A stretch of DNA of 20,387 nt from a virus: IMG/VR virus record IMGVR_UViG_3300006027_000085, positions 1-20,387 of that record; one strand, 5' to 3'. Every line of letters begins with the position of its first letter. Position 1 is the first letter of the stretch. Positions 4,293 through 17,907 of this stretch are shown in pieces. The position numbers and the translations under genes were made by a program. The notes below the pieces were generated by a model. The model ran no database searches. It saw only the letters and a program-made list of their open reading frames with translations, and was not told the origin of the DNA.

Positions 4293-4383
4293 TTTAATTT
4301 ATATTTAATAGCTAATTAACTAAACTTACATAATGCAAACAGACACTTTTTAAATTTTCTTTTCGTGTTAATTAGTTGTTTGA

Positions 4384-4408
4384 AGGGGCCTTTTAGGCCT
4401 CTTTTTTT
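4384..4408 (+). terminator. Intrinsic terminator of the accessory operon
   Basis: AGGGGCC (4384-4390) pairs with GGCCTCT (4396-4402) around a TTTTA loop: seven pairs, one of them G-U. It is followed by a run of T to 4408. It ends rightward transcription after the 90-aa gene and separates the cassette from the tail module. Confidence 0.8.
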
Positions 4409-4448
4409 ATGCCCGCTAGTATTATTATTACTTATTATTTAGATGGCA

Positions 4449-4474
4449 TTAAACAGCCCAAAAACACCCTTAAA
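4449..4474 (+). repeat. Degenerate TTAAAC repeat copy
   Basis: TTAAAC (4449-4454), then AGCCC, an A-run, and ACACCCTTAAA, ending at 4474. This resembles the divergent unit at 2932-2955, which reads TTAAACGCAATACACCCC and then TTAAAC. It lies just after the cassette terminator, so related elements now occur at both cassette boundaries and in the middle. The similarity is partial and could be chance in AT-rich DNA. Confidence 0.3.
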
Positions 4475-4566
4475 AATAAAATTAAAAAATATTGTAATCT
4501 ATTGATAAATAGAGATAGTTTTTTTTAGTTGGTAAAAAATACTTATAAATTCAACAGCATACGAAA

Positions 4567-4582
4567 GTAAAGTAAACTTTAC
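4567..4582. repeat. Perfect short inverted repeat
   Basis: GTAAAG (4567-4572) and CTTTAC (4577-4582) flank TAAA. This is a dyad of operator size in an intergenic region, with no T-tract, so it is not a terminator. A dimeric repressor site is one possible reading. Confidence 0.4.
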
Positions 4583-4710
4583 ATAGTTAAATATGTATTT
4601 GGCTAAAGTCAATAACTAAACACAGATATTAAGCTATAAAATGAGATATTCACGTAAAATGAATTTCCTAGGGTTCTGTGCGTGCATTTAAGAAAAATCA
4701 AAGGGATATC

Positions 4711-4741
4711 AAAAAAAAGCTCCGAAAGAGATTCAGAGCTT
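4711..4741 (-). terminator. Leftward-facing intrinsic terminator
   Basis: Read on the minus strand, AAGCTCTGAA pairs with TTCGGAGCTT (ten pairs including one G-U) around TCTCT and runs into eight T (A-run 4711-4718 on the + strand). On the + strand the same stem has a C-A mismatch and no T-tract, so it is directional. No minus-strand gene is visible to its right. It implies an antisense or small-RNA transcript, or protection against opposing transcription. Confidence 0.65.
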
Positions 4742-4841
4742 CAAACTTAAATATGAAAAATATCAGATATATATCTAAATTACAAAAAAAGATAGACTTA
4801 TCCTAAGCCTAACTAGATATATTTTTAAGAAGTCATATTGC

Positions 4842-4887
4842 TTATTCTACCTCTTGTAGGGGATTATTCTACATCTACGACTTCGTA
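4842..4887. promoter_or_regulatory. Direct repeat plus dyad upstream of tail operon
   Basis: TTATTCTAC occurs at 4842-4850 and again at 4864-4872, exactly 22 bp apart (about two helical turns). It is followed by the dyad TACGA-CT-TCGTA at 4876-4887. The group lies 75-120 bp before the first tail gene, where an activator or repressor of late transcription would bind. The role is inferred from arrangement only. Confidence 0.4.
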
Positions 4888-4961
4888 TATATAACTAACT
4901 TTTTTCATTTTGTTTTATTTTCGTATTTTAGTACATAATATAAATATAAAGTTATTATAGT

Positions 4962-5678
4962 ATGAGTCAATCATTTGAAATAAGAGTTCCTAAAGAATTA
5001 TCTGCGATTCCGGTTAAGAACTATCAGAAGTATATCAAAACTGTAAAATCAGACCCCAATAAACAGCCAACGTCTGAAGAATTAGAATTTGCTAATTTAA
5101 AAGTATTAGAATGTTTTTGTGGTATAACAATGAAGCAGGCTTATAAATTACCTATGACAGAGTTCTCTGGCATCATTAAACATATATCGGATTTATTCGC
5201 AGAGAAGACTCCGCTGCAAAGAACGTTTACTATGACCGATAAAAACGGAGAAACTATTGAATTTGGTTTTATTCCTAAATTAGATGATATATCAATGGGA
5301 GAGTTTATAGATTTAGATAAATATATTTCCGATTGGCAGCAAATGCATAAAGCTATGGCTGTATTATACAGACCCCTTAAACATAAAAAAGGAGATTTAT
5401 ATTTAATAGAAGATTACGAAGGTACAGACAAGTTCGCTGATATAATGCTAGACATTCCTGTTAATATTGCTATGGGTGCCATGCTTTTTTTTTACCATTT
5501 AGGGAACGAGTTGTCGAAACATTTGACGGACTCTTTGGTGAATCAACTGAAGGAGGATTCGGAATTTCAGCAAACTTTGGAGCAAAGTGGGGTTGGTATC
5601 AATCAATTTATGCACTCGCTGGAGGAGATGTCAGCAAATTTAAAGAAGTTACAAAACTCTCATTATTTCAATGTTTAA
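4962..5678 (+). CDS. Tail assembly chaperone, short (zero-frame) form
   Basis: A 238-aa protein. The N-terminal 170 residues fit a Bacteroidetes-phage tail chaperone: ITMKQAYKLPMTEFSGIIKHI, then a beta section with FGFIPKLDDISMGEFIDLDKYI and HKAMAVLYRPL. It is the first gene of the tail module, like gpG of lambda. At 5485-5493 nine T residues include a canonical slippery site, and a second open frame continues to 5746. In zero frame the C-terminus is about 60 residues, including GVGINQFMHSLEEMSANLKK. I associate that type of ending with this family, so both frames look functional. Such proteins coat the tape measure protein and help tail tube polymerisation. Here the tape measure lies some 9 kb downstream instead of next door. 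Confidence 0.75.
   Translation: MSQSFEIRVPKELSAIPVKNYQKYIKTVKSDPNKQPTSEELEFANLKVLECFCGITMKQAYKLPMTEFSGIIKHISDLFAEKTPLQRTFTMTDKNGETIEFGFIPKLDDISMGEFIDLDKYISDWQQMHKAMAVLYRPLKHKKGDLYLIEDYEGTDKFADIMLDIPVNIAMGAMLFFYHLGNELSKHLTDSLVNQLKEDSEFQQTLEQSGVGINQFMHSLEEMSANLKKLQNSHYFNV
5486..5492 (+). promoter_or_regulatory. -1 frameshift slippery site T TTT TTT
   Basis: Within the nine-T run 5485-5493, the zero-frame codons TTT (5487-5489) and TTT (5490-5492) are preceded by T5486, giving the X XXY YYZ heptamer. A shift back by one base puts the ribosome in a frame open until 5744-5746. The other frame meets TAG at 5500-5502. This parallels the G/GT frameshift of lambda-type tail chaperones. Polymerase slippage on the T-run could give the same result. 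Confidence 0.75.
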
Positions 5679-5746
5679 CCTGGCTTGAGTTTGAAAAAGA
5701 GAAAAACGAATTAGAAAATAAAATGATAAAACAAAATTTAAAATGA
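5492..5746 (+). CDS. Tail assembly chaperone, -1 frameshift extension
   Basis: 84 codons open in the -1 frame after the slippery site, ending at TGA 5744-5746. Fused to the first 177 residues of the zero-frame protein they give about 261 aa. The extension has protein-like composition, with AKWGWYQSIYALAGGDVSKF, then KEVTKLSLFQCLTWLEFEKEKNEL. This is the T-domain type of ending I associate with frameshifted chaperones of these phages, where the extension contacts the tail tube subunit. Its stop overlaps the next ATG (ATGA at 5743-5746), whereas the zero-frame stop lies 64 bp earlier. That exact junction strongly supports translation of this frame. Bases 5492-5678 are therefore read in two frames. 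Confidence 0.78.
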   Translation, partial: LPFRERVVETFDGLFGESTEGGFGISANFGAKWGWYQSIYALAGGDVSKFKEVTKLSLFQCLTWLEFEKEKNELENKMIKQNLK

Positions 5747-6204
5747 GACAAGTTTATACAGTACTAGATAAAATAAAAGAAATATTAAGAGCAAACGGAA
5801 TTACAAAAACCGTCACCTTCGGTGACATTACACAGGTGGACCTTAATAAAACTAGTATGTTTCCTTTAGCTCATGTAATGTTTAGAAATGTAGTATTTCA
5901 AGATAGAATCATGTCTGCATCTATTAGAATATTATGTTTAGATATAGTAGATGTAAATAAGAATAAAGAAACTGAAGACAACTTCTTTGGAAATGATAAT
6001 TTGCAAGATGTATTAAACACACAATTACAAGCAATAAACGACATACAACAAGAAATGAGAAGGGGAACTGCTTTCTCTGATAACTTTCAAATTACTACAA
6101 ATGTAACAGCTGAACCATTTATTGATAACTTTGAGAATGAATTAGCTGGATGGGGAATAACAGTAAATATAGAAGTTCCTAATAATGAATTATCTCTTTG
6201 TTAA
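5743..6204 (+). CDS. Probable tail completion/neck protein
   Basis: A 153-aa protein. Recognisable features are VTFGDITQVDLNKTSMFPLAHVMF near the N-terminus, a strand-rich middle with RILCLDIVDVNKNKE, and LNTQLQAINDIQQEMRRG before an acidic C-terminus with FENELAGW. This is the pattern of a small tail terminator-like protein that caps the tail tube at the head end. It starts in an ATGA overlap with the frameshifted chaperone and ends in a TAATG overlap with the next gene. The assignment rests on size, position and remembered family layout; it could equally be another connector protein. Confidence 0.55.
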   Translation: MRQVYTVLDKIKEILRANGITKTVTFGDITQVDLNKTSMFPLAHVMFRNVVFQDRIMSASIRILCLDIVDVNKNKETEDNFFGNDNLQDVLNTQLQAINDIQQEMRRGTAFSDNFQITTNVTAEPFIDNFENELAGWGITVNIEVPNNELSLC

Positions 6205-6656
6205 TGGCTAGAAGCACTTCTGAAATATTAGAATCATACAAAGAAAAAATAATATCCCAGTTACAAGACCGTTTAAAAAACTATGATAAGGTAGCTTCAG
6301 GAAGATTAATAAATAGTCTTACAGGAGAGGTTACTGAAAATGAAATTATAATAAGAGGTAGTAAATATTGGTATTGGGTGAATTATGGAAGAGAAGCTGG
6401 TGAGACACCACCTCCATACGCACCAATATTAGAATGGATGAAGGTAAGAGGATTGGATAATGAAAAAAGTGAAAGAGCAAATAAAGTAAAAGCATTTAGA
6501 ATAGCACAGAAAATAGGTAGAGAGGGAATACAAGGAATTAAATTTGTTGATGAAGTAAGTGAAAATATAAAATCTTCTTTAACAAAAGAGATAGGAGATA
6601 GTTATATACTAAAGATAAATAATTCATTTAATGGCAACAGTCAAAGTAAACAGTAG
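6204..6656 (+). CDS. HK97 gp10-like head-tail connector candidate
   Basis: 150 aa from ATG 6204. A TTG six bases upstream is in frame but would break the TAATG junction and is not needed. The core ASGRLINSLTGEV, followed by YWYWVNYGREAGETPPP and ILEWMKVRGL, matches the usual layout of small gp10-like neck proteins (a 'V..GR.PG..PP...I..W...KG' pattern). The C-terminal part is helical. It probably sits in the connector between capsid and tail. Its last 26 bases overlap the start of the large adhesin-like gene. Confidence 0.6.
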   Translation: MARSTSEILESYKEKIISQLQDRLKNYDKVASGRLINSLTGEVTENEIIIRGSKYWYWVNYGREAGETPPPYAPILEWMKVRGLDNEKSERANKVKAFRIAQKIGREGIQGIKFVDEVSENIKSSLTKEIGDSYILKINNSFNGNSQSKQ

Positions 6657-9600
6657 AAGTCCTTATTACGTAGTAGCATCAGGAGCTGACGGAGGTACAA
6701 TAGAAAACGCATCAGTAAAAATAGTTCAGGTAACAGGCACAGGAGATAAAGAAGGTCCTATATCTGAAGTATATGGAAATAATATTACTTTAAAGGTTGT
6801 CGCTAATAACTTTACACCTGTATCTTATTTATGGAGTGGAGGTGCAATTGCTGGAAATACAAATAAACAGATAGATGATTTTACTGAACCATCAGGAGCA
6901 GACCAAAGTATTGATTATGGTGTTATAGCTAAAGATTCAGCAGGAAATTCATATCCAGCAACTTTTACTGTAAGCTGGTCAGCAGATGCTCAATTTACAG
7001 CATTACTACAAATAGAAAATACAATTACAGGTCCATCTGCAGGATATACATTATCAGGAACTCCTGCATTAACTTATAATAGTACTACTAATAGATATGA
7101 AGCAAGAATAACAGGTAAGGATGGGGGTGCTTATTCATTTACATATTCAGCTACTTTAAATTCTGGATATAATGAAACTTCTACATTAACATTCTCTCCT
7201 ACATCTCCACAAGCAGGGACTTTTGCTACAGCAACAGGGGATGTTACAATACCAGTTACTTTATCGGGAACAGTAGCATTAAACGCAACATACGTATTAA
7301 GAAGAAGTACTTCTAATGTAATAGAAGGAAATACATTTGATATCTTTTTAGATACACAAAATGTTCCAAGTGGTACTTCAGTTCCATTTACTATAACAGG
7401 TGTTCAAGAAGCAGATTTACAAAGACAATCTCTGACAGGTGCTTTTGTAATCGGAGATACTGCAGTTCCTAATCAAAGTGTTAGAACATTTCAAACACTA
7501 ACAGATTTTGTTTCTGAAGGTGATGAAACTTTTACTTTAACATTAAATGACATAACCCCTACAGTATCAATAAGTGTTATTATTAGTGATTCTAACACAA
7601 ATCAAGCACAAACAACTCAAGTAAGTTTAAATGGATATTATTCTGAAAATAATGCTTGTTCAGCAACTGCTACAGAAGATGCTCATTATGGGCTTGCTTC
7701 AGGGCAAGTATTTGGTAATGGTGTGATTTTATATAAGGATATGAACCTTACACAACCATACACATCTACAGGAGATAATTATAAAATTGGAGCTAATCAT
7801 AGAGGAAGAATTGGTCGTTTTAATCCAGGTGAGATAACAGGATATGTAGAATGTCCAACTACAACAGAAGAGGAAGATGTTAAAAACGAATCTCCACTAT
7901 TCACTTGTGTTACTTCTGGGTTTCAAATGCTTGATGGAGTTGCAGGTGAACCAGTAAATTTTAATATTAATTTTGGAGCAGCGACTGTCTCACCATCAAC
8001 ATATACTCTTGGAACAAATGTAAAATATACAGCAACAATACAAGTTCCTACATCAGGATATTCAAATAGTGGGACTTTAGAAAATCCAACTTTAATTACC
8101 TGTGAAGATACAGCTAATGCAACTGCAAAGGTTGCTCTAACTTGTAGTGATATTCAATTTAATGTGCCAGATGGTGCAACTGGTGAATCAATTTCATATA
8201 ACTACAGTGTGATTCCTGCAAGTGCTATTGTTAGTGTAAAAAATAGTAGCGGAGGAAATGTTTATGCTTCTGGTTCTGATACTTATACTTTAACTATTAC
8301 AGTACCAGCTGGATATTCAAATACTGGTCAAACTCTACAATGTACAGATACAGCTACAGGAACTACACTGCCTGTATTTACTTGTGATATTGCAAACTTC
8401 CAAATAACATCTCCAGGATTTATTAACACAGCAGTTCAAGCAACTGTTTCTGCTGGAACGTTAAATTCAGTAAGTCCAAGTGTTTATCAAAGAGGAGTAT
8501 ATACATATACAGCTGATATTACAATACCATCAGGTTATCAAAATGCTGGAACTTCAATATCACCTGCTTGTACAATTACAGCAGAAGGAGTTATAAAACC
8601 TTCGGATTCTAATTCAATAACTATATCAAGTACTAATACTTCAACAACAGGAGCAAATGGAGAACTTCCTTGTGATTTAGAAGCTGATACAATTGTTTAT
8701 TATTCAGGTACAATTCAAAACGGAACATCATTATATACAAATCCTGAAAGAACATCTCCTTTTGGAGGTGCAGATTTATGGCATAAATTAGTAGTTCCAA
8801 ATTCAGACGGAGAGTTAATTGATAGATATGCAAGAATATATTCTTATCCTCCAGGACAAATTAATAATTTAAGTCAATGTGGACTGGGAACTGGTACTGG
8901 AACAGGTACAGGAGGTACTGCAACACCAACAGTGACTATATCTGCAAGTAATGAAGATACAGGAAGTAATGCTCATGCTTCATTTACTTATCAAAGAACA
9001 ACTTTAACAGCAACCACTTCAAATATTAATTCACCAAGTTATCAGTGGTATAAAGGTAGTTTTCCTGATGGAGGGACTGCAGTTTTAACTGCAATATCAG
9101 GAGAAACATCAAGTCAATTAGTTATTAATGGGGGTAGCGGTGAAACACAAACAACAACAGGAGTAGTATATTATAACTGTTTAGTTAATGATACTTATGA
9201 AGCAGATGCAAATTATGATATATTATGGGATGCAAGAGCAAGTTATTCTGTTACATATTCAGTTACAGGAGCAGCAAATATAAGTGCTTGTACTTCATCT
9301 GATTCTTTAACTTTATATGGAGATAGAGATGGTTCAACTGCTTTTTGTAATGCAACTAAATTTTATACAGATGCAGCAGGAACTACAGTAGCTCCAGGTG
9401 GAAGAACTTATTCTGATGGAACTAATTTTAGATATATAGAAGTAAGTGGAGTTCCTTTAGGATGTGTTGATTGGGGATGTGCAGGACCACCAGCAACTCA
9501 ACCAACTACTGGTACTATTCAAAAAGTATATGCAAGAAGATGTCAAAACCAAGATTCTCCAGGTAGATATGAATATTTCTTATTTGATGGATTTGAAGGA

Positions 9601-10554
9601 TATATTCCAGGTCAACATATTTTAGATATTTCTGATGTAGGTCAAGTAGGAGGAAGAGGATGTTATGAATTAATACAAGAATTTGATGATACATATTTAC
9701 TTCCTGATGGATATATAAGAATACAATTATCAGACCTTGAAAGACAACAACCTTATCCAGATTGTGATGAATGTACTGGAACTACACCTCCTGTAGTAGA
9801 AGAACCAGAACCAGTAATTACATATTACTATGCAAGATTTATTGATTGTGGTCAAGATGGTGGAAGTATTACTGCTGTATATTCTACAGACCAAATACCT
9901 ACAAGTCTTGTTATAAAAACAAATAATATTTGTAAAGAATATTTAGATAATGTACAAGTAGATGGAGCTTTTAATTTATCTAACTTTACTACATTCTTTG
10001 GTTGTGACCCTTGTAAAGCAACAATTCCTACTCAAGACCCAACACCAACTATATCTTATTTTAGAACTTATGGAGATTGTGCAACTGGAGGTTCAGATAT
10101 TCAAAAAGATTATGGAAGTACATCTGATTTAGGCAGTAATTGGCCAGCAGTTGTAAATGACAATGGAATATGTATGCAAGATTTAGGAAGTACAGGAACT
10201 ACATCAACAGTTAATGTGTTAAACTTAATAAGTTTTGAAGATTGTGCAACTTGTAATGAGTCAGTTAATCCTACTCCTGAACCAGACCCAACTCCAACTC
10301 CTACAGTAAGTAAGTTTAAAGTTTCAAGCTCAACAGAAACAACATCTTCTGCAGCTTGTTCGAATATAACTTTATTTGATGTTAAACTTGCTTATTCAGG
10401 AACATTGCAAGACGGAACTCGTTTATATACAAATGATACTTTAACAACTTTATATACACCAACAAGTACTAATTTTGTTAAATCAGATTCTGGTTATTCA
10501 TTTAGAATAGGTGTAAATAATCCAGGAGAAGTATCTAATTTAGTTGTATGTTAA
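6631..10554 (+). CDS. Giant modular Ig/Calx-beta/Cys-rich virion protein
   Basis: A 1307-aa protein, almost all beta-strand, Thr/Ser/Gly-rich, with no signal peptide. The N-terminal 210 residues hold Ig-like folds (LKVVANNFTPVSYLWSGG). Residues about 222-308 resemble a Calx-beta domain (VIEGNTFDIFLDT, VPFTITGV, SEGDETFTLTLND). Three tandem repeats of about 75 aa follow (about 424-654), each opening with TC and ending near GYSN/GYQN. A module ending in Cys with a 'G..LY....' core occurs at about 331-408, 677-750 and 1237-1307, more weakly at 871-950. Three Cys-rich units at about 965-1210 end in CDEC, CDPC or CATC. It is probably a surface-exposed tail protein for host or glycan binding; that role is inferred from architecture. 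Confidence 0.75.
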   Translation: MATVKVNSRSPYYVVASGADGGTIENASVKIVQVTGTGDKEGPISEVYGNNITLKVVANNFTPVSYLWSGGAIAGNTNKQIDDFTEPSGADQSIDYGVIAKDSAGNSYPATFTVSWSADAQFTALLQIENTITGPSAGYTLSGTPALTYNSTTNRYEARITGKDGGAYSFTYSATLNSGYNETSTLTFSPTSPQAGTFATATGDVTIPVTLSGTVALNATYVLRRSTSNVIEGNTFDIFLDTQNVPSGTSVPFTITGVQEADLQRQSLTGAFVIGDTAVPNQSVRTFQTLTDFVSEGDETFTLTLNDITPTVSISVIISDSNTNQAQTTQVSLNGYYSENNACSATATEDAHYGLASGQVFGNGVILYKDMNLTQPYTSTGDNYKIGANHRGRIGRFNPGEITGYVECPTTTEEEDVKNESPLFTCVTSGFQMLDGVAGEPVNFNINFGAATVSPSTYTLGTNVKYTATIQVPTSGYSNSGTLENPTLITCEDTANATAKVALTCSDIQFNVPDGATGESISYNYSVIPASAIVSVKNSSGGNVYASGSDTYTLTITVPAGYSNTGQTLQCTDTATGTTLPVFTCDIANFQITSPGFINTAVQATVSAGTLNSVSPSVYQRGVYTYTADITIPSGYQNAGTSISPACTITAEGVIKPSDSNSITISSTNTSTTGANGELPCDLEADTIVYYSGTIQNGTSLYTNPERTSPFGGADLWHKLVVPNSDGELIDRYARIYSYPPGQINNLSQCGLGTGTGTGTGGTATPTVTISASNEDTGSNAHASFTYQRTTLTATTSNINSPSYQWYKGSFPDGGTAVLTAISGETSSQLVINGGSGETQTTTGVVYYNCLVNDTYEADANYDILWDARASYSVTYSVTGAANISACTSSDSLTLYGDRDGSTAFCNATKFYTDAAGTTVAPGGRTYSDGTNFRYIEVSGVPLGCVDWGCAGPPATQPTTGTIQKVYARRCQNQDSPGRYEYFLFDGFEGYIPGQHILDISDVGQVGGRGCYELIQEFDDTYLLPDGYIRIQLSDLERQQPYPDCDECTGTTPPVVEEPEPVITYYYARFIDCGQDGGSITAVYSTDQIPTSLVIKTNNICKEYLDNVQVDGAFNLSNFTTFFGCDPCKATIPTQDPTPTISYFRTYGDCATGGSDIQKDYGSTSDLGSNWPAVVNDNGICMQDLGSTGTTSTVNVLNLISFEDCATCNESVNPTPEPDPTPTPTVSKFKVSSSTETTSSAACSNITLFDVKLAYSGTLQDGTRLYTNDTLTTLYTPTSTNFVKSDSGYSFRIGVNNPGEVSNLVVC
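7900..8592 (+). repeat. Three tandem ~75-aa coding repeats
   Basis: Units start near 7900, 8137 and 8374. Each encodes a (V/L/F)TC opening, a central strand pair and a closing V/I-P-(T/A/S)-(S)GYxN-(S/T/A)G motif followed by another Cys. The DNA copies have diverged, so this is an old protein-level duplication rather than a recent DNA repeat. Confidence 0.7.
8887..8910 (+). repeat. 6-bp microsatellite encoding Gly-Thr linker
   Basis: Four GGwACw units encode GTGTGTGT, followed by GGT. It forms a flexible hinge between the second 'LY' module and the next Ig-like domain. Such a tract can change length by slippage in steps of two residues without frameshift. Confidence 0.6.
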
Positions 10555-14433: not shown

Positions 14434-14570
14434 TGATTAAATTAATAATAGAACTATTAAAGACAGATAATTTTTATGGAGTTAATCCTTATATAGATAT
14501 TGCTAAAGGTAGATATAAATCACCAGAGAATTGGAAAGAATTTAAAAATATATTAAAACGTAGTAGGTAA
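14433..14570 (+). CDS. Small ORF between tail protein and tape measure, 45 aa
   Basis: ATG 14433 overlaps the upstream stop (TAATG), and its own TAA overlaps the tape measure ATG at 14570 in the same way. The 45-aa peptide begins MIKLIIELLKTDNFYGVNPY and is basic, with one helix and YKSPENWKEFKNILKRSR at the end. Precise overlap on both sides is strong evidence for translation. I recognise no domain. Its place just before the tape measure would suit a small tail chaperone or a coupling peptide. Confidence 0.62.
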   Translation: MIKLIIELLKTDNFYGVNPYIDIAKGRYKSPENWKEFKNILKRSR

Positions 14571-16705
14571 TGAACGAGAATGAAATTATAATTAAGGTAA
14601 CCTTAACTGGAGATGGTAAAGTAAAACTAGACCAGTTAACCACTGCTATAAATAAAGCTACTGAAGCAACTAAAAGGCAAACTAAAGCTCAACAAAATGT
14701 AATTAGAGCTGCTAAAGGAAGTGAGAGGTATTATTTAGAACAAATTGCTGCATTAAAAAAGCTTCGAGCTAGCAATGTAAATAATGCTAAAAGTTATGCT
14801 AAAATTGGTGTAGAAATATCTAAATTAGAAGCAAAGCTACAAAAATTACAGTCAGTACAAAAAGAAGCAATACAAACTAATGCTGACCAAATAAGTAGTT
14901 CTGGTCTTGCAGGTGCAACATTAAACGAATTTGGTAGATTTATTTCTGATTTACCTTTTGGTATTACAGCGGTAACAAATAACTTATCACAGTTAGCAAA
15001 CTTATTTGTAATATTATCTGCTAAAGTAAATGGAGGAAGGAAAGCATTTAGTTTATTATTACAGCAATTAAAAGGTCCTTTAGGATTAATTATAGCATTT
15101 CAAGTAATAATTGCTTTAGTACAAGGATTTCAAAAAGAAATACTTATTCTTTTAGGTATTACTAATAAACAAAAAGAAGCACAAAAAGAATTTAATAAAG
15201 CAATAAAAGAATCACAAGGAGCTATTCAAGCTGAAGCTTTAGAGTTAGAGGGTTATTTAAAAATATTAAAAGATTCAAATAGTTCAAGAGAAGCTCAACA
15301 AAGAGCTGTTCAAGAATTAGCAAATTCTCTTCCTGGTCTTACTGAAGCACAAATAGCAAATAAAGATTCTATTGATGAGACTACAAAAGCAGTAGCAGCT
15401 CTTATAGAACAAAAATTAATTCAAGCGGAAATAGATACACTTCTTGAGAAAAATGCTGAAGTTTTGGCAATGAGAAGTGATATAAGAAATATTCAAGCTA
15501 TTGAGAATGTAGATGAACAAAACAAAGCTATAAAACAATTTGTAAAAGATAATAAATTAAGATTAGAAGTATTTACTGAAACTCTTGGAGATAACTTCAT
15601 GAGTATATTAAAATTTGAAAAATTTGATTTTAATGACGCAAGGAGAATTATATTTGATGGTTTAGGTGAAACACTTGATGGAGTAGAAGAGAAAGTATTT
15701 GAATTACAAAATAAATTATCTCCAGGACCAGGAGACCCAGACAAAAGAGATAGAGTAACTCCTTTTGTATTCGGTGCTAATGTAAAACAAAATCTTGGAA
15801 AAACATCTGATGAAATATCTGAAAGAATAACTAAACTTTTTGATAGAGTAAGAAATGCTCTTGGACTTAAAACATTTGGTGAAGAAATAAATGAAATGCA
15901 GAATAATGCAGCTGATGCAATAACTGAATTTGTAAATGGAGACCAAGTTAGAATTGATTCTGCAAAAAGAGTTGCTGATTTTGAGCAACAGCTTCATGAT
16001 GATAAAATGAAGAGTATAGAAGATGAGTTTAAGAAAAGAGAAGATTTAGCAAATAACATACAGTCTGCAGCTAGTAAATTATCTCAAATACAAGACCAAG
16101 CTTTTCAATCACAAATTAAAAGATTAGATACTGAAAGAGACATTATATTAAATAATGATAATTTAACTGCAGAAGAGAAAGATAGATTATTAAAGAAAAA
16201 TGATGCAGATACTAGAAAAATAAGAACTAAACAAATCAAGTTTGAAAGAGATATGCATATGATAGAAATGTCTATGGAACTTGCTAAAATAGGTCTTCAA
16301 TTAAAGGCAGCTATGACTAAAACAGTAAGTGATGGAACAGGAAGTGTTGCTGCTGCTACTATGTCTTTAGGTGAATTCATGAAACAATTAGGTCCATTTG
16401 GTATAGCAGCTTATGCAGCTTCTATAGGGGGAGTTATTGCAACTATTATATCAGCTCGTAAAAAAGCACAACAACAAATTCAATCACTATCTAATGAATC
16501 TCTAGCTGTTTCAGGTGGAGGAGGTGCAGCTACAGCTATTTCAGCTCCCGCCTTCAACGTAGTAGGTGCAACACAGACAAGTCAACTTGCTCAAACTATT
16601 GCTGGAGCAGAGGATAAACCATTAAGAGCTTATGTTGTAGCATCTGATATATCTACTGCACAAGAACTTGAACGTAGTACAATTGAAGGAGCTTCTATTG
16701 GATAA
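14570..16705 (+). CDS. Tail tape measure protein
   Basis: A 711-aa protein. The N-terminus is a long coiled coil (ATEATKRQTKAQQNVIRAAKG and LEAKLQKLQSVQKEA). A segment ATLNEFGRFISDLPFG and then NNLSQLANLF leads to a hydrophobic stretch at about 166-198 (KGPLGLIIAFQVIIALV). A charged helical region with a further coiled coil follows at about 470-570. A second hydrophobic segment lies at about 607-630 (FGIAAYAASIGGVIATIISA). This alternation is typical of tape measures, which set tail length and may insert into the host membrane during DNA entry. At the usual 1.5 angstrom per residue it predicts a tail of roughly 100 nm. It is not next to the chaperone gene, contrary to the common order. Confidence 0.85.
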   Translation: MNENEIIIKVTLTGDGKVKLDQLTTAINKATEATKRQTKAQQNVIRAAKGSERYYLEQIAALKKLRASNVNNAKSYAKIGVEISKLEAKLQKLQSVQKEAIQTNADQISSSGLAGATLNEFGRFISDLPFGITAVTNNLSQLANLFVILSAKVNGGRKAFSLLLQQLKGPLGLIIAFQVIIALVQGFQKEILILLGITNKQKEAQKEFNKAIKESQGAIQAEALELEGYLKILKDSNSSREAQQRAVQELANSLPGLTEAQIANKDSIDETTKAVAALIEQKLIQAEIDTLLEKNAEVLAMRSDIRNIQAIENVDEQNKAIKQFVKDNKLRLEVFTETLGDNFMSILKFEKFDFNDARRIIFDGLGETLDGVEEKVFELQNKLSPGPGDPDKRDRVTPFVFGANVKQNLGKTSDEISERITKLFDRVRNALGLKTFGEEINEMQNNAADAITEFVNGDQVRIDSAKRVADFEQQLHDDKMKSIEDEFKKREDLANNIQSAASKLSQIQDQAFQSQIKRLDTERDIILNNDNLTAEEKDRLLKKNDADTRKIRTKQIKFERDMHMIEMSMELAKIGLQLKAAMTKTVSDGTGSVAAATMSLGEFMKQLGPFGIAAYAASIGGVIATIISARKKAQQQIQSLSNESLAVSGGGGAATAISAPAFNVVGATQTSQLAQTIAGAEDKPLRAYVVASDISTAQELERSTIEGASIG

Positions 16706-16740: not shown

Positions 16741-17907
16741 ATGGAAAAAATAATAGAACTTATTATAGACGAGGAAAATGAAATTAGTGGTATTGAAGCT
16801 ATTTCTGTCGTTGAAAATCCAGCTATAGAAGAAGACTTTATAGCACTGAAAGAACATAAAGATATCAAACTTGCTGAAGTAGATGCAGAGAAAAGGATTC
16901 TTATGGGCCCCGCTCTTATTCCTAATAAGAAGATATTTAGAAAAGGAGAAGATGATGAAGATTACTACATATACTTCTCTGAAGATACAGTAAGAAAAGC
17001 ATCAGAATTATTCTTTATCAAAAGTAAACATAGAAACTCTACGTTTGAACATTCATTTGAATTATCAGATATGTCTGTAGTAGAATCTTGGCTTATTGAA
17101 GACCCTAAAAAAGATAAAGCTGCTGCTTATGGATTTGACCTGCCAAAAGGAACTTGGATGGTATCAATGAAAGTATTAAATGATGATGTATGGAGAGCAG
17201 TAAAAGAAGGAGAAGTAAAAGGATTTTCTATAGAAGGTTATTTTGCTGATAATATGGAAAGACCTAAAGAAAGTATAGAAGAAAATGCTTGTAGTGAATG
17301 TTTAAGTGAACTTAATGCAGAGTTTGAATTAGCAGAAGTGTTAGCAAGTTTATCTGAAGAAGTAGAACTTGAATCTTATGGAGGATATCCACAATCTGCA
17401 AAAAACAATGCAAAAAGAGGAATTAAATATAACGAAGCTGTAAATAATAAATGTGCAACTCAAGTTGGTAAGGTTAGAGCAAGACAACTTGAAAGAGGAG
17501 AAAAATTTACTTTATCTACTCTTAAACGTATATACTCATATTTATCAAGAGCTTCTGCTTATTATCAAGAAGGAAATAATGAGGCTTGTGGAACTATCTC
17601 ATATTTATTATGGGGAGGTAAATCAATGTTAACTTGGGTTACATCTAAACTTAAAGGACTTGATGCAATAGAAGCAGCATCAACTATTATTGATGGTAGA
17701 GCTGCTTATACAACTCAAGAAGAAGCAGAAAGAGCTGCTGAAGATATTGGCTGTCAAGGTTATCATACACACGAGTACGAAGGAGATGTATGGTATATGC
17801 CTTGTGAGGAACACAATTTAAAAGCTCCTTGCCAAGATGGATATGAGCAGATAGGTATGAAAGATAAAGATGGTAGAAAAGTACCTAATTGTGTTCCAAT
17901 AAAATGA
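16741..17907 (+). CDS. XkdF-type prohead protease with extra C-terminal domains
   Basis: A 388-aa protein. Residues 1-170 are an XkdF-like protease: ISGIEAISVVENPAIEEDFIAL, then H104 in FEHSF, S116 in VESWLIEDP, LPKGTWMVSMKV and VKGFSIEGYF. H104 and S116 are candidate catalytic residues by analogy with HK97-fold proteases. A linker with CSEC follows. At about 213-306 (YPQSAKNNAKRGIKYNEA, RARQLERGEKFTLSTLKRIYSYLSR, LLWGGKSMLTW) is a domain seen fused to phage proteases and portals. Residues about 323-358 (TTQEEAERAAEDIGC, HTHEYEGDVWYMPC) and 367-386 (KDGRKVPNCVPIK) are further small Cys-containing modules. The protein would cleave scaffold and capsid in the prohead. The gene starts 35 bp after the tape measure. 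Confidence 0.8.
   Translation: MEKIIELIIDEENEISGIEAISVVENPAIEEDFIALKEHKDIKLAEVDAEKRILMGPALIPNKKIFRKGEDDEDYYIYFSEDTVRKASELFFIKSKHRNSTFEHSFELSDMSVVESWLIEDPKKDKAAAYGFDLPKGTWMVSMKVLNDDVWRAVKEGEVKGFSIEGYFADNMERPKESIEENACSECLSELNAEFELAEVLASLSEEVELESYGGYPQSAKNNAKRGIKYNEAVNNKCATQVGKVRARQLERGEKFTLSTLKRIYSYLSRASAYYQEGNNEACGTISYLLWGGKSMLTWVTSKLKGLDAIEAASTIIDGRAAYTTQEEAERAAEDIGCQGYHTHEYEGDVWYMPCEEHNLKAPCQDGYEQIGMKDKDGRKVPNCVPIK

Follow-up and report, generated by a model that had tools for sequence, protein, structure and literature searches.

Frameshifting of the G-T type is widespread in long-tailed phages; for the resulting G/GT chaperones, the proportion of the short and long products is important, and it is the -1 domain that recruits the tube protein (PMC5009743). 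In phage lambda, an N-terminal domain is produced as gpG or, through a -1 slip on the in-register heptamer G_GGA_AAG, as the fusion gpGT; G ends 5 codons past the slip, T adds about 144 codons, and the pair lies in the tail module directly before the tape measure. Phage HK97 presents a similar architecture with gp13/gp14, a short tail protein that a -1 frameshift extends into a fusion; GenBank annotates the pair accordingly, and it is flanked by the major tail subunit and the tape measure. Two frames can also be linked by transcriptional slippage, as in Thermus dnaX and in Shigella mxiE, whose slippage run consists of nine identical A/T bases. The run of Thermus dnaX is made of nine As (PMC1088944). 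The closest described relative of the locus analyzed here is found in the Inhavirus phages P12024S and P12024L: their gp38 and gp39, annotated as two separate hypothetical genes, represent a homologous gene that shares the T9 slip site and the -1 domain but whose zero-frame tail comprises 25 codons, against 61 here.

The DNA that we analyzed (the window) is an IMG/VR virus record of 20,387 bases. In the frame of the ORF starting at 4962, positions 5481-5504 read ATG CTT TTT TTT TAC CAT TTA GGG. Without a slip, reading goes on for 61 codons and stops at 5678, whereas a -1 slip fuses 177 codons to 84 codons of the -1 frame, yielding a product of 261 aa that ends at the TGA 5744-5746. The translation of the -1 frame from 5492 is LPFRERVVETFDGLFGESTEGGFGISANFGAKWGWYQSIYALAGGDVSKFKEVTKLSLFQCLTWLEFEKEKNELENKMIKQNLK. 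The ATG of the next ORF (5743-5745) overlaps this TGA as ATGA. The features of the locus and their basis are:

4962..5678, + strand: zero-frame ORF encoding the shorter product of 238 aa (N-domain of 177 codons and zero-frame tail of 61 codons); match to PHROG 32199 and 62 relatives
5485..5493, + strand: nine-T run, read directly; T9-T12 in readable relatives except the A_AAU_UUU clade
5486..5492, + strand: slippery heptamer T_TTT_TTT in zero-frame register; sequence and relatives
5492..5746, + strand: -1 frame extension of 84 codons plus TGA; translated, conserved in 50 relatives, predicted helical
5493..5678, + strand: dual-coded stretch of about 61 codons in both frames; synonymous suppression and long zero frame
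5500..5502, + strand: TAG shutting the third (+1) frame; sequence, with TTTAG or TTTAA also in the listed relatives
5743..6204, + strand: next gene, 153 aa; ATGA overlap with the -1 stop, homologue of P12024S gp41

A first-pass annotation of the window had already given the positions of the T run, the end at 5678, the 84 codons, the TGA and the overlapping ATG, all correctly, and had also observed that the remaining frame closes at once, which the TAG at 5500-5502 confirms. This third-frame stop is largely forced by the two coding frames, because Leu in one frame combined with Phe-Arg/Lys in the other imposes TTTAA or TTTAG. Its near-universal presence was left out as evidence, since our filter required one of these two sequences. 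Relative to lambda, the locus is alike in its N-domain product and -1 fusion, its in-register slippery heptamer and its place in a tail module, but the unshifted and shifted readings extend 61 and 84 codons past the slip, and lambda lacks the long selected overlap between the unshifted tail and the extension that is described below.

A protein scan with the zero-frame product retrieved 62 relatives. As far as they are readable, all of them, including P12024S, present T_TTT_TTT in register, with the homologous place reading GTT/CTT/ATT/TTT TTT TTT T..; the only exception is L048. More broadly, with the exception of one five-contig clade, a run of T9-T12 was found at every readable slip site in over 300 IMG/VR loci, as well as in P12024S and P12024L, two isolated phages of Nonlabens. 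Two types of scan were blind to the slip site, using patterns located solely in the -1 domain or solely in the N-domain. The former recovered the T run in all loci except L245, which belongs to the A_AAU_UUU clade, and L267, in which the run lies a few bases earlier; the latter yielded 78 new loci, with T9 or T10 in 78/78. One scan relied on a peptide that itself covers the slip site and was left out as independent evidence for the T run, and in one listing many contexts were ignored because they were anchored on an upstream Phe-Arg. Outside this place, the loci of the relatives contain only 54 T runs of at least nine over 1.50 Mb. Because the run occupies the homologous place in relatives and is rare elsewhere, sequencing error or chance can be excluded. 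Homopolymers are indeed error-prone, but the same frame break is shared by hundreds of independent contigs and two isolated phage genomes and also occurs in a clade without any homopolymer. Both frames are moreover under purifying selection. The relatives thus rule out an error in the run or gene decay, to which we assign a negligible probability. The first-pass annotation had proposed that relatives with one uninterrupted frame would point to such an error, and single-frame relatives were absent from all the DNA examined. In one clade (L313-L317), an AAT (Asn) codon takes the place of xTT ahead of the run, and a third Phe codon keeps the run at ten Ts, which hints at possible selection on run length itself.

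P12024S is the nearest isolated phage and possesses the T9 slip site. It was together with P12024L the sole match (P12024) in a tblastn search of the -1 extension against isolated phages. The isolated members of this phage group infect marine Bacteroidota and there are no other isolates. Among 395 sampled genomes of the MAG's phylum, we obtained two matches, one of which is the query MAG itself; the family is therefore rarely integrated or rarely sampled.

The five-contig clade (L048, L148, L149, L150 and L245) contains no long T run. Its slip region reads GTA/GCA AAT TTT AT(T/A) TA(T/C), which places A_AAU_UUU in register with both frames open and with the same frame relation as T_TTT_TTT. 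Heptamers of the type R_RR.U_UU.Y, to which A_AAU_UUU belongs, have been highlighted as prone to shifting in E. coli (PMC4066793). Since one canonical tandem-slip heptamer replaces another at the same place, a pattern predicted by ribosomal but not by transcriptional slippage, the sequences suggest that ribosomal slippage is more likely than transcriptional slippage. The family thus presents an X_XXY_YYZ heptamer in zero-frame register followed by an open -1 frame, and both the site and the extension are conserved across divergent relatives. A run of about nine or more at the junction, as expected in all members under transcriptional slippage, is found in the other relatives but not in the A_AAU_UUU clade, which in this respect is unlike dnaX and mxiE.

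Under transcriptional slippage, RNA polymerase would add a U at T9 in some transcripts and bring the extension in frame, giving the same two proteins with the choice made in the mRNA. This explanation keeps some weight, because outside the A_AAU_UUU clade the run is never shorter than nine, because the second Phe codon is never TTC although TTC represents 19% of the Phe codons in these genes, and because nine is the length associated with polymerase slippage: it is the length from which bacterial genomes avoid A/T runs, and some bacterial genes use runs of 9T/9A for this purpose (PMC1088944). However, the T9 length is mostly accounted for by coding around the heptamer (V/L/I-F-F-Y/W), the five-contig clade holds the frame relation through A_AAU_UUU without a long homopolymer, and the literature searched contained no phage tail gene using such a route. 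We therefore regard transcriptional slippage as improbable. When the bases following the slip were folded with nested pairing, a conserved RNA structure was not detected (mean z about -0.3). The comparison of relatives bears out the -1 frameshift on the T run claimed by the first-pass annotation, through both the slip site and the conserved extension, and the window likely carries a programmed -1 ribosomal frameshift in a tail-assembly gene of a phage group whose isolates infect marine Bacteroidota.

We further analyzed whether the bases following the slip site are selected in both frames. The four-fold (third) positions of the -1 codons correspond to the second codon positions of the zero frame. 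At conserved residues of the -1 frame, four-fold synonymous differences affect 14, 4.7 and 8.7% of pairs over the overlap in three clades; for the same clades, the N-part gave about 49% and the next gene 39-47%. In the window's clade, bootstrapping gave 0.14 [0.04-0.26] for the overlap versus 0.51 [0.45-0.58] before the slip. The synonymous-site comparison recommended in the first-pass annotation thus gave a clear pattern: along a sliding plot, synonymous difference is about 0.4 ahead of the slip, drops there to 0.12-0.3 and is back at 0.37 shortly after the zero-frame stop, with a second dip at the start of the next gene. The zero frame remains open for 46-79 codons past the slip in 61 of the 62 relatives checked in detail. 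When the -1 frame was shuffled among synonyms, the median open length of the zero frame was mostly 0-7 codons (P mostly <=0.06 per locus). On the side of the -1 frame, the extension is conserved (KWGWYQSIYALA...), with a mean column identity of 58% in 50 aligned relatives, and the conservation of this domain reaches down to 25% identity in P12024S. Synonymous changes are therefore fewer over the overlap and the second frame is maintained, as expected of dual coding and as the first-pass annotation had suggested for 5492-5678. These results support the view that the same 61-codon stretch is selected in both frames in related phages.

One zero-frame tail is shortened naturally: in L121, a premature TAA interrupts the zero frame 7 codons past the slip, while the remaining tail is still recognizable, so that only the short product is truncated.

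Alternatively, the -1 domain alone may matter, and the zero-frame tail may be a passive by-product whose frame stays open through composition or a constraint at the RNA level. Several properties of the tail are consistent with this: it is predicted to be disordered or weakly helical, its length varies from 7 to 84 codons over 263 loci (mostly 46-66) and is restricted to 16-25 codons in the P12024S group, and in L121 it stops almost immediately. In contrast, the strong conservation of the third positions of the -1 codons extends over the whole overlap, the zero frame rarely stays open under synonym shuffling, and our search for conserved RNA structure found none. Overall, a passive tail appears unlikely. 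Because the -1 domain is more widely kept, it is presumably the older of the two, and the zero-frame tail would have been overprinted later. Tentatively, the slip may decide which of two similarly sized C-terminal domains, both under selection and encoded by the same ~61 codons, is made, a reading that we find nearly as probable as its opposite. If correct, it would represent a variant of tail-chaperone frameshifting in which the unshifted product, too, possesses a dedicated overprinted tail, generating isoforms with alternative functional tails.

The two products were compared to known families and folds. The N-domain matches only PHROG 32199, whose function is unnamed (E 2e-19), and no significant Pfam match was obtained for the gene. 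In the AlphaFold model of the zero-frame product (pLDDT 79.6), the N-domain is confident and the tail is helical but weak; PDB fold searches with this model returned generic helices only. The -1 domain is modeled as helical with lower confidence (68); the extension did not match any named PHROG, and 20 members match phrog_38404, which is unnamed. In BFVD, the zero-frame model and the -1 model share several matches, to proteins of 226-267 aa. Distant relatives thus seem, from these structural models, to carry both domains in one chain, which supports the fusion as a real protein, although some of these matches may come from error-prone long reads. A0A516L611, A0A516L5A8 and A0A6J5N0W0 are candidates for such a single-frame fusion.

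The genomic context of the gene was analyzed to evaluate its function. Two further features are relevant:

6198..6656, + strand: tail-completion/Neck1-like gene, weak (PHROG 5, E 0.009); weakly similar to P12024S gp42
14570..16705, + strand: candidate tape-measure gene (PHROG 18891 tape measure, E 5e-4); C-terminus similar in P12024S gp49

The frameshift gene (4962) lies ~9 kb upstream of the tape-measure candidate (14570) and is not adjacent to it, unlike lambda G/T and HK97 gp13/gp14, the latter being likened to our gene by architecture. The order is the same in P12024S, where terminase, gp38/39, gp41, gp42, ..., gp49 follow one another and resemble the genes of the window. The position directly upstream of the tape measure, which is usual for these chaperones but not strictly defining, is therefore not the one observed here. 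At the sequence level only, the gene does encode the two products of a G/GT pair, with a common N-domain and a longer form obtained through a -1 shift. No match to a known tail chaperone was found in Pfam, PHROGs or PDB, and hhalign found no sequence similarity to lambda G and T (probability 0.1), although such families diverge widely.

Because G/GT chaperones are characterized by a -1 frameshift pair encoded within a tail module, a role in tail assembly is favored. The products are most likely a G/GT-type tail-assembly chaperone pair, a reading based on architecture and tail-module position, not on homology. The label of tail chaperone given in the first-pass annotation is thus plausible on those two grounds, while homology to a known chaperone was not found. 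We infer that most ribosomes would pass T_TTT_TTT unshifted and produce the 238-aa protein, and that in a minority the P-site and A-site Phe-tRNAs would slip back one base and re-pair on UUU UUU, leading to the 261-aa fusion with its 84-aa C-terminal domain. By analogy with lambda gpG/gpGT, the shared N-domain may bind the tape-measure protein and the -1 domain may recruit the tail-tube protein, in a fixed ratio. The unshifted product would carry its own 61-residue tail, encoded by the same DNA as the -1 domain and apparently selected as well.

It is also conceivable that the pair is a true frameshift pair but represents another tail or neck protein made in two forms. The failure to find homology to known chaperones in Pfam, PHROGs, PDB and hhalign searches is consistent with this, as is the fact that the gene adjoins a neck/tail-completion-like gene or directly follows the terminase rather than adjoining the tape measure. 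However, frameshifted G/GT pairs constitute a widespread precedent in long-tailed phages, the inspected gene map of the window contains no other gene of such architecture, and three family members hit PHROG 166 ('tail protein') with E-values down to 3e-4. We consider a non-chaperone role unlikely, yet the most serious of the alternatives discussed here, and retain the chaperone pair as the preferred reading.

Frameshifting of the G/GT kind is a known phenomenon, but this family and its long selected overlap look new. Judging from the sequences compared, the frameshift is real, programmed and dual-coded, and the family is distinct in sequence. These results have consequences for annotation, since gene callers split the gene or drop its second half, and an essential-looking tail factor is then recorded as two unrelated hypotheticals or as a single one. 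The first-pass annotation had anticipated that a one-frame annotation would miss the long product, and the public records that we saw indeed leave the gene unannotated or split, as for gp38/gp39 of P12024S. A large phage group is affected by such misannotation. The family further offers a long overlap where the same bases are under selection in both readings. Moreover, T_TTT_TTT versus A_AAU_UUU constitutes a natural comparison to determine whether the ribosome or the polymerase is responsible in phages of Bacteroidota, and P12024S is cultured and available for such tests.

Several other characteristics of the window were observed. Between 432 and 20073, the terminase is followed by small genes, the tail genes including the tape measure, the protease and a probable capsid protein, such that the tail block precedes the head block. 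A region of ~670 bases (4293-4961) without any listed ORF of at least 60 aa separates the early small genes from the putative chaperone gene and contains a strong terminator-like hairpin at 4382-4404. A repetitive protein of 1307 aa that contains cysteine-rich segments and probably serves as a tail fibre or adhesin is encoded at 6631-10554, and a head maturation protease (Peptidase_S78_2) with a DUF3721 match near its C-terminus is encoded at 16741-17907.
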